From assembly GCA_945787885.1 (NCBI GenBank), contig CALZJF010000017.1, positions 1-40,580 of the forward strand: DNA of 40,580 bases. Direction: 5' to 3'. This DNA is from an uncultured Bacteroidales bacterium. GTDB taxonomy: Bacteria; Bacteroidota; Bacteroidia; Bacteroidales; Bacteroidaceae. How positions within the stretch are numbered: position 1 is the first letter of the stretch; each line of letters opens with the position of its first letter. The position numbers were made by a program, and so were the translations under genes. The notes under the pieces were generated by a model. It had not been told where the DNA came from and made no database searches. It worked only from the letters and a program-made list of their open reading frames with translations. Below are positions 27,825 through 33,089 of the stretch, piece by piece.

Positions 27825-29936
27825 CTATAGCGCAATCTTGCACCCTACGAAATACGTGCGGGGCTGTGTCGGCCCATAGAAATAGCCTGAGTCGCGAAAT
27901 TCTCCGCGGTCGAGGTCTTTCTGAAACGCATTAAAAATATTCTGCACGCCGCAGTTGAGCTGCAGCTGGAGGCGATGAGGCAGGATAAAAGTGTAGGCCA
28001 ACTTCGCTGAAAGTTCCATGAAACCGGGTGTATGCACCATTTCGTCCGTCTCGGCGTAGTGTGGCACGTACATCCTTCCAGTGTAGATTCCAGAGAGGGT
28101 GCAGTCCATCCGGCGAAGCGGTTGCACGTTCATCGTGAAATAGCCATACACATCTGGTGTGCGTGGCATCTTCTCAATGGTAGGCACATCGGGGTCCTCG
28201 CTCCAAGCGGTGGGCGAGGTGTAGCGGCTACGTTGCAGGGTGAGGCCTGCCAATATGGAAAAATTGGTGCCATGTGCCGCCTTGGCCTCGATGTTACAGC
28301 CATACACTTTTGCGCCATCGCCGTTGCGGCGCTCCTTGATGGCATGACCCTCAGCGTTGGTGCCGACGTTTTGGAGGTAGAACACATCGGAAAGATACGT
28401 GTAGAACACCTCGCCCAGCAGGTTGAAGAGGTAGTGCCCACGCAGGATGGTCCAGTCGGCCGATCCGCTGAAGCTGTTTGAATATTCAGGCTTTAGCCCA
28501 TCGGCAAGCGTAATCATGATGCCCTCGCCGCCTACTGCCGTGACGTGGAGGTCTTCATCGTATGCCTGTGGTGCGCGAAATCCCGTTGACCATGTCAGTC
28601 GGGTCTGCAGTTTCTCCATGGGTTTCCACATCAGGTTGAGCCTTGGGCTGAAAATCGGCTTTTCAATCAGATTGTGAACGTCCATTCGCAGTCCGGCAAG
28701 CAGTGTGAAGCGTTGTATTTTCCATTCCCCCTGCCCATATACGCTGGCTATCTGCACGTCTTGGGTCAGGTCGCGGTCGTAGCCCGTCATGATGTCGTGG
28801 AGGGAGTTATACTGATATTCCGTGCCCGCCGTCAGTGTGGCAGGGGCAAAGAGCAGACGTTCGAAGCGCCCTACATACGTCGCACCGCCCACGTACGTCA
28901 GGTCTTTCGTCTTGCCGTAGGCATTGGGGTCGCGCTGTGCCCCGTAGTAGCTATTGCGATCTACGTGCTGAAGCGACGAAAATGCAGAGATATTCTGCGT
29001 GCCATCGCGCCAACCTATATCGTAGGTCAGTCCGCCACTGTGGATGATGTGGCGCGTTTGCTCTGTGATGTCCGTCAGGTGCGGTTCCAGGTCGAAGAGG
29101 TTACCGCCGCGGCGAAATTCGTTCGTCGTGTGGTATTCGATGCCGATGCGGCTGAGCCCCGTTGGGCGAAAATAGCCGTTCAGTCCGAAAGTATGTGAAG
29201 AGAGTTTGCCCAGTTCTGAAAAACCATCGTCGTTGTGGTCATACTCCTGACGATAGCGCGTGGTCTGATAGAGAGCCAACCCATAGGTGCGGTCTTCGCT
29301 GACGATAGAGGCGTTGGCTCCCATCATGTCTTCCCATGATTGTGCGCCAATGTTCGAGAGCGTGTTTCGCACTTCAAAACCATTCTTCCTCGGGTCTTTC
29401 GTGATGATGTTGATGGTGCCTCCTACGGCGTTGGCACCGAAGAGGGCAGAGCCGCCTCCCCTGACCACCTCAATCCGATCTACCATGGCTGCCGGTATCT
29501 GTTCCAATCCATAGACACCGCTCAGCGCACTCACCACGGGACGGCTGTTGATGAGAATCTGCGAGTACGAACCTTCCAGACCGTTGATTCTTACTTGCGG
29601 AAAGCCGCAGTTCTGGCAGTTGTTTTCTACTCTCAGTCCTGATTGGAATGAAAGCGTCTTGGCAAGGTCGGGGGCATTGACCTGTTCGAGCAGTTGGGCG
29701 TTGATGACGTTCACCACGACGGGCGCATCCTTGCGTTTCACTACGCTCTTGTTCGCGGAGACCACAATCTCGTCGAGGCATACTGCTTGGCTTTCTTCTT
29801 CTTCTTCGTCGAAGCAGTCAGTGCTGTCAGGGCGTTCCGTCAGAGGTGGTGGCTGAAAAAGTGCAGGGATGGTAGCCTTGGCCTGTACGCCCATCATGGC
29901 AGCTGCAATGGCTGCCCCCATAAAGTGTCTGTTCAT
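27825..29936 (-). CDS. TonB-dependent outer-membrane receptor
   Basis: The 703-residue product has a signal peptide (about 1-20), an acidic linker, a TonB box (LDEIVVSA 54-61), a plug domain (DAPVVVNVINAQLLEQV to TINIITKDP) and a 22-strand barrel ending in aromatic-rich strands. The plug carries Cys107 and Cys110 in NNCQNCGFPQVRINGLEG. Receptors with this motif are frequent in Bacteroidota, with iron, haem or cobalamin relatives, but the ligand is not certain. I use the ATG at 29936 because it opens the signal peptide and lies just inside the promoter; the upstream frame to 30227 overlaps the divergent promoter region. The divergent RIC-LuxR gene is a likely regulator. Confidence 0.9.
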   Translation of the reverse strand: MNRHFMGAAIAAAMMGVQAKATIPALFQPPPLTERPDSTDCFDEEEEESQAVCLDEIVVSANKSVVKRKDAPVVVNVINAQLLEQVNAPDLAKTLSFQSGLRVENNCQNCGFPQVRINGLEGSYSQILINSRPVVSALSGVYGLEQIPAAMVDRIEVVRGGGSALFGANAVGGTINIITKDPRKNGFEVRNTLSNIGAQSWEDMMGANASIVSEDRTYGLALYQTTRYRQEYDHNDDGFSELGKLSSHTFGLNGYFRPTGLSRIGIEYHTTNEFRRGGNLFDLEPHLTDITEQTRHIIHSGGLTYDIGWRDGTQNISAFSSLQHVDRNSYYGAQRDPNAYGKTKDLTYVGGATYVGRFERLLFAPATLTAGTEYQYNSLHDIMTGYDRDLTQDVQIASVYGQGEWKIQRFTLLAGLRMDVHNLIEKPIFSPRLNLMWKPMEKLQTRLTWSTGFRAPQAYDEDLHVTAVGGEGIMITLADGLKPEYSNSFSGSADWTILRGHYLFNLLGEVFYTYLSDVFYLQNVGTNAEGHAIKERRNGDGAKVYGCNIEAKAAHGTNFSILAGLTLQRSRYTSPTAWSEDPDVPTIEKMPRTPDVYGYFTMNVQPLRRMDCTLSGIYTGRMYVPHYAETDEMVHTPGFMELSAKLAYTFILPHRLQLQLNCGVQNIFNAFQKDLDRGEFRDSGYFYGPTQPRTYFVGCKIAL

Positions 29937-29966
29937 GCTTGAGTTAATGATAATTTTTTCGTCGTG

Positions 29967-29997
29967 CAAAGTTACCGCCAGTTCCGAGAGTAGGCAA
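29967..29997 (-). promoter_or_regulatory. Promoter of the TonB receptor gene
   Basis: On the minus strand, TTG (29997-29995), 20 bp, then TAACTTTG (29974-29967). This is a full-strength Bacteroidota promoter, and its -7 box is identical to that of the divergent regulator gene. Confidence 0.78.
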
Positions 29998-30000
29998 TAC

Positions 30001-30020
30001 GCAAAAATGGGGGTTTTTGC
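30001..30020. promoter_or_regulatory. Candidate operator next to the receptor promoter
   Basis: GCAAAAA and TTTTTGC form a perfect 7-bp inverted repeat with a 6-bp spacer, immediately upstream of the receptor's -33 box. A second, weaker dyad (AGGTA 30052-30056, TACCT 30063-30067) lies between the two promoters. Either could bind the dimeric LuxR-type domain. Confidence 0.45.
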
Positions 30021-30120
30021 AGCTCGCCGAAGGGCGGAGATACCATGTTTTAGGTAGTGTGATACCTGAAAATGAGGAGGGTTGGCGATGGATTTTTCCC
30101 CTTTTACCCATAAATTGTGA

Positions 30121-30151
30121 TTGCGGGAATGTGGGGAAATCGCTAACTTTG
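30121..30151 (+). promoter_or_regulatory. Promoter of the RIC-LuxR regulator gene
   Basis: TTG (30121-30123), 20 bp, TAACTTTG (30144-30151). It precedes the start codon at 30214 by 62 bp. Confidence 0.78.
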
Positions 30152-30213
30152 CCGCGAAAACTAAGATATAACCAATCAACCAGGGGGAGTTGCAACCCAC
30201 GATATATACTGCC

Positions 30214-31182
30214 ATGCAACGATTCAAACTCTACGAGGCCAGCGATAAGATGAGCGACCTCATCAGCGACAACTATAGTATGCTTCAGGGACTTGGGGCT
30301 TTCGGCATTCGTCTTGGCTTTGGCGACAAGACGGTGGAGGAAGTCTGCCAGGAGCAGCAGGTGGATAGCTATACCTTCCTTGCCGTCGTGAATTTTATTA
30401 TCAACGGCTATATTTCCAAAGAGACTGATGAACGCATCTGCGTGCAGACCATTCTGGGCTATCTGCGAGCTTCCCACAAATACTTCCTCGACTTCCAACT
30501 GCCCGCCATCCGCGAGAAACTGCAAGATGCACTCTCGCCCGAACATGGGCTTACCGCGCTGATACTGCATCTCTTTGACGAGTATGCCCACGACATACAG
30601 CGCCACATGCGCTACGAGGAAAAAACGCTCTTCCCCTATGTCGAAGCCTTGCTGCGCGGCGACCTGACCACAAAGTATAATGCCGACATCTTCTCCAAAC
30701 ATCATGGCGACACGACCGGAAAGTTTCAGGAGCTGAAGAGCATCTTGATAAAATATCTGCCGCAAGACCGCTTGGCAAACCATAAGCTCACGGCTACGCT
30801 CTATGACATCTACAATAATGAGGAATGGCTCAGCAATCATGCCGAGGTGGAAGACCATCTCTTTGTGCCAGCCATCCGCCTGCTGGAGAAGAAGGTGGAG
30901 ACAGACGGCATATCGACGAGAATTTCTGACATCATCCGTCGGGCAAAGCAGGGAGAAGGCTGCGAGACGGTCTCCGAACGCGAGAAGGAAATCATTGTCT
31001 GCCTCGTGCAGGGCATGTCGAACAAGGAAATTGCCGAGCAGCTGTTTATTTCCGTCAATACCGTCATCACCCACCGCCGTAACATAGCCCGAAAATTGCA
31101 GATACGCTCCGTGGCGGGATTGACCATTTATGCCATTGCCAACAATCTGATAGACCAAAGTTTCTTTGCGAAGGATGAATAA
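30214..31182 (+). CDS. RIC/YtfE-like di-iron (hemerythrin) domain fused to a LuxR-type HTH
   Basis: The 322-residue product has three parts. Residues 1-65 resemble the N-terminal domain of RIC/ScdA/YtfE proteins but lack its Cys-Cys. Residues about 80-225 are a hemerythrin-like bundle with the RIC ligand pattern: His88, His131 and Glu135 (HMRYE), His163 or His164, His209 and Glu213. Residues 254-310 are a LuxR/GerE helix-turn-helix (VSEREKEIIVCLVQGMSNKEIAEQLF). The di-iron centre probably senses iron, oxygen or nitric oxide and alters DNA binding. I start it at 30214, 62 bp after the promoter. It is divergent from the TonB receptor, which it likely controls. It is not a response regulator because no receiver domain is present. 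Confidence 0.88.
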   Translation: MQRFKLYEASDKMSDLISDNYSMLQGLGAFGIRLGFGDKTVEEVCQEQQVDSYTFLAVVNFIINGYISKETDERICVQTILGYLRASHKYFLDFQLPAIREKLQDALSPEHGLTALILHLFDEYAHDIQRHMRYEEKTLFPYVEALLRGDLTTKYNADIFSKHHGDTTGKFQELKSILIKYLPQDRLANHKLTATLYDIYNNEEWLSNHAEVEDHLFVPAIRLLEKKVETDGISTRISDIIRRAKQGEGCETVSEREKEIIVCLVQGMSNKEIAEQLFISVNTVITHRRNIARKLQIRSVAGLTIYAIANNLIDQSFFAKDE

Positions 31183-31937: not shown

Positions 31938-33089
31938 ATGTCCACACACCGAATCCTCTCGCTATTTCTGCTGTTCGCCTTTACAGCCTTTCATGCTGAA
32001 GTCTCAGCTCGCCGCATCCGTGTAGCCCCGCCCAGAGCGCGCGGTGGTAATCCTGCCCTCTGCACGGAGGCCATCAATCGCGCCATTGCTAAAGCCGGAG
32101 AGGGCGACACGGTGGTGATAGGTGCTGGCAACTGGACCACCGCCACCATACACCTCAAAAGCCATCTGACGCTCATGATAGAGCAGGGTGCCACAGTGGT
32201 GGCGGCATCTGACCCTGAAATCTACGACCATTATCAGCCTACACACGACATGACGCGCTACGACACGGGAGCGGGGACGCGCAATGCCAACCTCACGGGC
32301 GATGCCCGCTGGACGCGCGCCCTCATTCTGGGGCAGAACGTGGAGGATGTGACTCTCTGTGGCGGGGGAATCATCGACGGAATGCACATAGAAGACCCTC
32401 TCGGCGAGGAGCAAATGCGCGGCCCACACACCCTCTTGCTCGCGGAAGCGGAGAACATCAGGGTGGAGGGACTGAGATTCCTGCGTGCCTCAAACTATGC
32501 TGTGCTGGGCTACGAACTCAAGGACTGCCGCTTCAGCCGTCTGAACATCGAACAGGGATGGGACGGCATACACATTCGTGGGGGCGAACGCATCGTCATT
32601 GCCGACTGCGACATTGCCACTGGCGACGATGCGCTTGCCGGCGGATATTGGCAGGGCATGGAGATTCGTCGTTGTCGGTTGAACTCCTCCTGCAATGGTC
32701 TGCGTATCATTGAGCCGTCGGAGCAGGTGAGGGTGAGCGACTGCGAGATATACGGCCCCGGACGTTTTCCGCACCGCACTCGTCTGGAACGTCCGATAAC
32801 TGACCCGCTGCCAGCTGGCCATGACCTTATTTATGGCATTGTCATCGAGCCTGGGGCCTGGGGTAAGGCCCCCGGGCGAACGGACGGCATCGTCATTGAA
32901 AATGTGAGCATCGACAATTCGTGGGCTCCGGTGGCGTATAGCATGGGCGAGGACAACACCTGCGGCTCGCTGACGATGAAGAACGTGGCAGGCACGCATA
33001 TACGCGGTGTGGCACAGCCCGTCAATCGTCAGGACTGCGTCAGGAGTTGGGACGTGATGACGCTCCAAAACGTGAGTGTGAGCAAGTGA
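31938..33089 (+). CDS. Secreted GH28-like right-handed beta-helix protein
   Basis: The 383-residue product has a signal peptide (about 1-24) and a pectin-lyase-like parallel beta-helix: repeated strands with LTLMIEQGATVVA, ENIRVEGLRF and SRLNIEQGWDGIHI. It carries GH28-type aspartates (D209 in WDGIHI, D230/D231 in TGDDAL) and an Arg in NGLRI (R256), but SCNG replaces the usual GHG, so the GH28 histidine is missing. It could be an active variant polygalacturonase-like enzyme on uronic acid polymers or a binding protein. With the lyase at 909 it suggests use of acidic plant or algal glycans. It ends convergent with metH. Confidence 0.78.
   Translation: MSTHRILSLFLLFAFTAFHAEVSARRIRVAPPRARGGNPALCTEAINRAIAKAGEGDTVVIGAGNWTTATIHLKSHLTLMIEQGATVVAASDPEIYDHYQPTHDMTRYDTGAGTRNANLTGDARWTRALILGQNVEDVTLCGGGIIDGMHIEDPLGEEQMRGPHTLLLAEAENIRVEGLRFLRASNYAVLGYELKDCRFSRLNIEQGWDGIHIRGGERIVIADCDIATGDDALAGGYWQGMEIRRCRLNSSCNGLRIIEPSEQVRVSDCEIYGPGRFPHRTRLERPITDPLPAGHDLIYGIVIEPGAWGKAPGRTDGIVIENVSIDNSWAPVAYSMGEDNTCGSLTMKNVAGTHIRGVAQPVNRQDCVRSWDVMTLQNVSVSK

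Follow-up and report, generated by a model that had tools for sequence, protein, structure and literature searches.

The gut bacterium from which this DNA derives, an uncultured member of the Bacteroidales (assembly GCA_945787885.1; 2.7 Mb, 96 contigs), carries a gene in which a RIC-like hemerythrin domain is joined to a LuxR/NarL-type helix-turn-helix (HTH) and which is divergent from a TonB-dependent receptor gene. The locus raises the question of what such a fusion regulator senses and which promoters it acts on. We analyzed the window, that is, the whole stretch of 40,580 nucleotides of contig CALZJF010000017.1 (positions 1 to 40,580). A first-pass annotation had read the gene pair as a one-component uptake system responsive to iron, oxygen or nitric oxide (NO). 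Our results favor iron: the locus as a whole is probably best explained by an iron-starvation activator that reads di-iron occupancy and acts on both divergent promoters. The two genes are as follows.

27825..29936, minus strand: divergent TonB-dependent receptor, 703 aa, ATG at 29936 (PF00593, PF07715)
30214..31182, plus strand: fusion regulator, 322 aa, RIC-like hemerythrin plus LuxR/NarL HTH (open reading frame and Pfam)

The fusion itself is not new. As far as the consulted parts of PMC10434189 (2023) go, a hemerythrin–LuxR fusion was already noted there in Prevotella intermedia (PIN17_RS10465, Fig. 3E legend), together with a two-gene operon of hemerythrin and CdhR in B. thetaiotaomicron (BT0519-0520) and P. 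gingivalis (PG1236-37), and the two-gene form is induced by iron depletion. The window protein corresponds to the fused variant of this arrangement of a hemerythrin gene and a LuxR-type gene.

Both promoters of the window locus do carry the identical boxes that the first-pass annotation had seen. The element TAnnTTTG, however, is the generic -7 element of Bacteroidetes, and identical boxes alone therefore say nothing on shared control. We rejected the boxes as evidence of co-regulation; the signal is carried by a palindrome. To judge from the DNA itself, the regulator-specific element common to both promoters is a 20-bp palindrome upstream of each box, which was absent from the earlier annotation. 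The intergenic region is organized as listed below; R1 is a model of operator plus promoter built from 64 pieces, none of them from the window or from L033, a locus of the metagenome-assembled genome Prevotellaceae bacterium SUG275 with an identical fusion protein and a receptor 99.4% identical to that of the window.

29967..29974, minus strand: -7 box of the receptor promoter, complement of TAACTTTG (R1 match 29965-30017, 26.3 bits)
29996..30015: operator 1, receptor side, 16.1 bits, 41 bp from the receptor -7 box
30039..30058: operator 2, inner, 11.7 bits
30061..30080: operator 3, inner, 9.3 bits
30103..30122: operator 4, regulator side, 16.0 bits, 41 bp from the regulator -7 box (R1 match 30103-30152, 27.0 bits)
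30144..30151, plus strand: -7 box TAACTTTG of the regulator promoter

The four copies are spaced by 43, 22 and 42 bp, in near-helical phase, and the whole window holds one more site of at least 8 bits (22925, 9.5 bits). The weak inner operators (30039-30080), at a spacing of 22 bp from each other and of 42-43 bp from the strong outer pair, are similarly arranged in several relatives, for example L045 and L051.

The operator was defined from relatives. A scan of reference genomes returned at least 512 relatives, from which the best 80 loci were kept (11 of these with less than 2 kb of upstream DNA). Expectation-maximization motif search of the 260 bp upstream of 98 non-redundant fusion starts recovered TACCcAnTAnTgGGTA de novo, a putative site of the LuxR/NarL HTH. 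With a palindrome imposed the search gave AATACCcAnTAnTgGGTATT; left unconstrained, it gave AATACCtAaAAATgGTGATT at a log-likelihood of 1121, compared to 296-348 for three dinucleotide shuffles. The NarL consensus is a 7-2-7 palindromic site, and the likely operator described here for the first time is a NarL-like 7-2-7 palindrome. Sites of at least 9 bits were present in 101 of 104 upstream regions, two or more of them in 78 (in-sample counts), against a background in downstream DNA of 0.81 per 10 kb.

Site start and TAnnTTTG lie exactly 41 bp apart in 61 regulator-side cases, where 4.0 were expected with boxes from other loci, and in 57 divergent-side cases; 213 site-box pairs lie within 90 bp in all. 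Since the -7 box lies at -11 to -4, this spacing places the operator centre near -42, the class II activator position. Two points speak against activation. The operators overlap the -33 region, which makes repression geometrically possible, and P. gingivalis CdhR was reported, in the part of PMC4082711 consulted, to repress mfa1 and luxS. The iron-loaded protein could instead repress the two promoters by covering their -33 regions and be released on iron loss, in a Fur-like logic. Yet the exact 41-bp spacing is kept at unrelated promoters (TonB receptors, FeoAB and a candidate small RNA, sRNA), which an activator touching the polymerase needs and a repressor does not, and a passage of PMC10101095 calls CdhR an activator of the hmu operon. 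We consider repression unlikely.

Another LuxR/FixJ-type regulator might also bind the palindromes, the hemerythrin fusion being a mere neighbor or modulator. Other LuxR-type genes are indeed present in the same genome (C5:56721 and C1:3704), and palindrome binding by the fusion is predicted from sequence. On the other hand, the palindrome lies no more than 400 bp upstream of the regulator start in 101 of 104 loci, is kept at loci with a divergent TonB receptor in place of a porin, and recurs beside pairs in other families in which the two domains are split into adjacent genes. When the fusion-trained matrix was applied to 20 such split loci, all seven matches of at least 16 bits were intergenic, beside the pair or adjacent genes (FeoAB, a porin and flavodoxin among them). 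We hold the involvement of a different regulator to be very unlikely.

The operator–promoter module was then followed genome-wide with R1. Scoring 150 of 795 first-look candidates in the bacterium's own genome ranked the window's two promoters first and second, at 27.0 and 26.3 bits (E 1e-5). Of the 46 matches listed, just two more cover the operator together with the box, namely C5:73089 (18.0 bits, E 0.007) and C63:7255 (15.1 bits, E 0.054); both of these weak modules precede TonB receptor genes (L183:4502-7057 and L184:4762-7140, respectively, minus strand). Of 33 relatives from within the order, including 15 from the same genus, 22 had an R1 match at E ≤0.001. Among relatives, FeoAB, HmuY/TonB receptors, flavodoxin, porin–imelysin–diheme operons and the candidate sRNA all lie downstream of the module. 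The 40 module loci fetched, all away from the regulator's own promoters, comprise 12 TonB-receptor operons (one with HmuY), eight FeoAB, one flavodoxin, three porin or cytochrome-c-assembly, nine sRNA, one methyltransferase and six other targets, which are raw counts without a base rate for such genes. One of the porin or cytochrome-c-assembly targets, L203, adjoins the regulator gene, and the porin at L221 was assigned by reading the sequence. The gene neighborhoods and the iron-depletion data in the consulted part of PMC10434189 point to iron as the signal, and none of our tests favors O2 or NO in that role.

The fusion protein divides as follows.

30214..30438, plus strand: residues 1-75, ScdA_N-like region by profile alignment to ScdA, CC pair absent, Cys45 invariant
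30451..30876, plus strand: residues 80-221, hemerythrin-like four-helix bundle with candidate ligands H88, H131, E135, H164, H209 and E213
30781..30948, plus strand: residues 190-245, one continuous helix in the AlphaFold2 model, running from the final helix of the hemerythrin bundle (H209, E213) up to the HTH linker
30970..31134, plus strand: residues 253-307, GerE/LuxR HTH

Both Pfam domains of the 322-aa protein score above their cut-offs (Hemerythrin PF01814, residues 80-221, 48.2 bits against 25.3; GerE/LuxR PF00196, residues 253-307, 63.8 bits against 23.5) and the HTH fold matches too, confirming the annotated fusion of a RIC-like domain to a LuxR HTH; the Pfam scan gave no receiver domain. 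The ligand residues that had been proposed, His88, His131, Glu135, His163/164, His209 and Glu213, are all in place when the ATG at 30214 is taken as residue 1. In an alignment of 38 fusions (the window protein and 37 of the 80 loci, hand-picked), H88, H131, E135, H164, H209 and E213 are invariant in all 38 and H163 is nearly so, which makes H164 the better ligand candidate of the two.

The first-pass annotation had called the protein RIC/YtfE-like. The hemerythrin-like four-helix bundle is present, alignment of the family profile with S. aureus ScdA begins at residue 1, and H131, E135, H164, H209 and E213 align with the His and Glu residues of YtfE/ScdA. We rejected strict YtfE/RIC membership, because the curated YtfE/RIC model TIGR03652 scored 40.4 bits against a cut-off of 204.7 and L34-G35 replaces the RIC CC pair in all 44 fused rows of an alignment of 44 fused and 20 split proteins; the first His is also off by one. 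What stands is a RIC-like fold and a ligand pattern that matches at five of six columns. In profile searches of the PDB, the narrower profile A2 matched HTH proteins and gave a few weak matches, none to a RIC protein, and the RIC signal emerged with the broader profile A3. Cys45 (window 30346-30348) is invariant in all 44 fused and all 20 split rows, despite the loss of the RIC CC pair, and may have a redox or metal role.

Homology in fold to YtfE and ScdA, proteins that the consulted part of the review PMC9268430 ties to NO and peroxide stress, brings in a further explanation: the RIC-like centre could sense O2, NO or redox state instead of iron supply, with iron-uptake genes responding to the higher iron demand that oxidative or nitrosative damage creates. 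The invariant Cys45 could be a redox switch. Against this, no NO- or peroxide-defence gene is found among the 34 of 40 module targets that were classified (most other neighbors being without annotation); the classes represented are iron uptake, flavodoxin, porin or cytochrome assembly, methyltransferase and the putative iron-sparing sRNA. The response of the two-gene form to iron depletion, in the part of PMC10434189 consulted, also argues against it, and we find this explanation quite improbable. Members of the RIC family repair Fe-S clusters; for the window protein, a sensory function is more likely.

As annotated, the divergent gene encodes a TonB receptor, with both a beta-barrel (PF00593, 1.3e-30) and a plug (PF07715, 1.9e-20). 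Its substrate subfamily was not given by NCBIfam, where the best 25 of 29 matches all fell below cut-off (for example TIGR01783, 93.9 against 223.5). Matching operators at both promoters indicate that the regulator probably controls the receptor. A survey of neighborhoods did not uphold the two genes as a fixed pair, and we rejected the receptor as a fixed partner: a full-length receptor homolog stands beside only 6 of the 80 fusions (L033, L034, L039, L050, L051 and L076, one of them nearly identical to the window), and a different TonB receptor occupies the same place at L041 and L042. Of the uptake system first proposed, we retain the connection with iron uptake and the regulator's probable control of the receptor, but not the fixed partnership. 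The commonest divergent operon beside fusions is porin–imelysin–diheme oxidoreductase. In 110 loci with mechanically called reading frames, a porin-like gene (Porin_O_P, 18.9 bits, under the cut-off of 20.9) is divergent as first or second neighbor in at least 51, with imelysin genes in at least 44 and diheme-oxidoreductase genes in at least 41; these are lower bounds, as contigs were often short and the caller sometimes chose antisense frames. Split pairs adjoin FeoAB in four loci (L118 by Pfam; L117, L126 and L127 read from sequence), flavodoxin at L116 and the porin–imelysin–diheme oxidoreductase genes at L120. In the window itself, a pectinase-like beta-helix/GH28 gene (31938-33089, plus strand) lies downstream of the regulator; its match to rhamnogalacturonidase BT4146 is below cut-off, and no link to the regulator was seen.

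The split form, a RIC-like reading frame with an adjacent LuxR-type one, occurs in 16 of 24 genomes from other families of the same order. In a tree of the 64 aligned rows, the 44 fused proteins are nested in a grade of the 20 split ones, with two label changes, and the fusion looks derived, with one reversal (L113, of the same genus) or a second origin. L113, from genome G035, is split, most matches in its genus being fused, and possibly represents the reversal. The window gene would thus be the fused, one-component form of the Bacteroidales hemerythrin–CdhR pair, its link to the named PG and BT genes resting on the relevant part of PMC10434189. Unfused LuxR proteins of about 196-207 aa lie near some fusions (L083:9783-10376, L088, L103, L108, L084) and may be relics of the unfused partner. 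L083, the one scanned from this group, gave GerE only. The unfused LuxR-type protein was rejected as a response regulator, since Pfam scans of three examples (L083, L115 and L118) yielded GerE alone, with no receiver domain and no assignment for the N-terminal part.

Several of the strongest modules precede no reading frame. Common to them is AAATTGTTATGTYNATGTT with a stable hairpin after it, which formed in all 18 folds computed (no shuffled control). The 19-nt core is present in 16 of 37 genomes of the same genus (L226-L241, e.g. L235 and L238). The bacterium's own genome is among the 21 without it, with no match at up to two mismatches, and 0 of 24 genomes of other families had it at up to one mismatch, while a reversed control pattern gave five matches in all 61. 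In a draw of 301 genomes from the family, exact matches were limited to the same genus, and one-mismatch matches in eight genomes of other genera were at about the reversed-control level. An operator lies upstream of the core in 16 of 16 (15.8-23.7 bits), with the box at exactly 41 bp in 15; the seven core genomes found by the core alone, outside the R1 search, have operator and box in every case. The highest-scoring module among the 33 order genomes (43.3 bits, G035) stands at this sRNA. Six sRNA loci gave no Rfam match at E ≤1. The searched titles and abstracts, subscription journals being mostly outside that search, held no published account of the operator or the sRNA.

The 18 carriers, of which two have variant cores, contain the complementary 12-mer 28 times, and 18 of these occurrences are the sRNA itself; the reversed control of the 12-mer had no match. 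Eight of the other ten sites lie 17-34 nt before an ATG and two away from gene starts. The eight precede seven iron proteins by Pfam, namely three pyruvate:ferredoxin oxidoreductases (PFOR), two ferredoxins, a fumarase and a rubrerythrin, and one outer-membrane-type protein. A rubredoxin leader is a further site with one mismatch. When duplexes with the sRNA's own flanks were compared to 300 shuffled flanks, the results were mixed overall. Own flanks beat the shuffles for the G036 and G028 ferredoxins, the G035 PFOR and the G035 outer-membrane protein (0-5 of 300 as good), were weakly better for rubredoxin (18 of 300) and fumarase (42 of 300), and were no better for the G031 and G016 PFOR and rubrerythrin (122-155 of 300) or at the two sites away from starts (130 and 189 of 300). 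On average, sRNAs from other genomes outperformed the own one in pairing with fumarase, rubrerythrin and the G031 and G035 PFOR. We regard this RNA as a candidate iron-sparing sRNA whose core would pair with iron-protein leaders.

Collectively, the link to iron and the activator geometry are supported by computation; metal and DNA binding by the fusion, activation rather than repression, di-iron occupancy and an active apo form are inferences. With iron plentiful, the RIC-like bundle would hold a di-iron centre and keep the regulator inactive. With iron scarce, the apo bundle would shift the register or dimer geometry of helix 190-245, a candidate signal-transmission helix in the structural model; the HTH pair would then bind DNA and recruit RNA polymerase. 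The dimer would contact the 7-2-7 palindromes through its NarL-type HTH and activate, from the class II position, both its own promoter and that of the TonB receptor, whose probable substrate is an iron complex. Iron is the most likely signal.

Several observations weigh against this proposal. The AlphaFold2 model is of moderate confidence (mean predicted local distance difference test score, pLDDT, 77.2; predicted template modelling score 0.63), and pLDDT falls within the long helix to 66 for residues 231-240 and 57 for 241-250. H88 is displaced by one residue from the YtfE/ScdA His in the profile alignment, and one of the 20 split rows is missing most ligand residues. No site of at least 11 bits was found at 7 of the 20 split loci. 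An operator was looked for at the own FeoAB (C5:48403) and none was found, and so the own regulon looks small. Six of the 33 order genomes had no R1 match at E ≤0.005; of these, G054 carries a fusion, and in G056 a split pair adjoins a porin–imelysin operon. Outside the order, R1 matched 4 of 60 genomes at E ≤0.001 under stricter filters, of which G396 also has an adjacent RIC–LuxR pair.

Taken more broadly, hemerythrin–LuxR regulators, fused or split, may be the long-sought iron-starvation activators of Bacteroidales, a proposal to which we give just under an even chance. They would be di-iron one-component sensors acting through a phased NarL-type operator at FeoAB, HmuY/TonB, porin–imelysin–diheme and flavodoxin promoters, and in one genus they would also drive a RyhB-like iron-sparing sRNA whose conserved core would pair with ferredoxin, PFOR, fumarase, rubrerythrin and rubredoxin leaders. 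The operator defined here, the predicted regulon and the sRNA candidate open the question to direct tests in commensal laboratory strains.

Among known systems, the closest are CdhR with its hemerythrin partner (PG1236-37, BT0519-0520) and PIN17_RS10465, which share with the window a hemerythrin and a LuxR-type protein, in two genes or fused, and a link to iron depletion (PMC10434189, in part). The divergent target in the window is a TonB receptor, and the likeness to P. intermedia is taken from the published description. The portion of PMC10434189 consulted describes no operator, regulon or sensor mechanism for the CdhR systems, nor does the word 'motif' appear in the paper's text. With YtfE of E. 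coli and ScdA of S. aureus the window protein shares the fold, full-length profile homology (to ScdA) and five of six aligned ligand columns; it differs in lacking the CC pair, in its first His, shifted by one, in its added C-terminal HTH and in scoring below the TIGR03652 cut-off. The HTH fold and the 7-2-7 palindrome geometry are common to NarL/FixJ/LiaR response regulators, in which a receiver domain takes the place of the RIC-like one. RyhB is transcribed on iron starvation and pairs with leaders of iron-protein mRNAs. The candidate sRNA resembles it in its predicted transcription and pairing, but stands under a hemerythrin–LuxR operator rather than Fur, with its exact core confined to one genus and absent from the window's own genome. 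Finally, the eukaryotic FBXL5 and BRUTUS (PMC12022348, in part) likewise report iron status through a hemerythrin di-iron domain, by analogy and not by membership; those proteins are E3 ubiquitin ligases, whereas here the domain would act directly on transcription. If the di-iron centre is the sensor, the fusion would be a bacterial hemerythrin iron gauge mounted on a transcription factor, in parallel to FBXL5 and BRUTUS.

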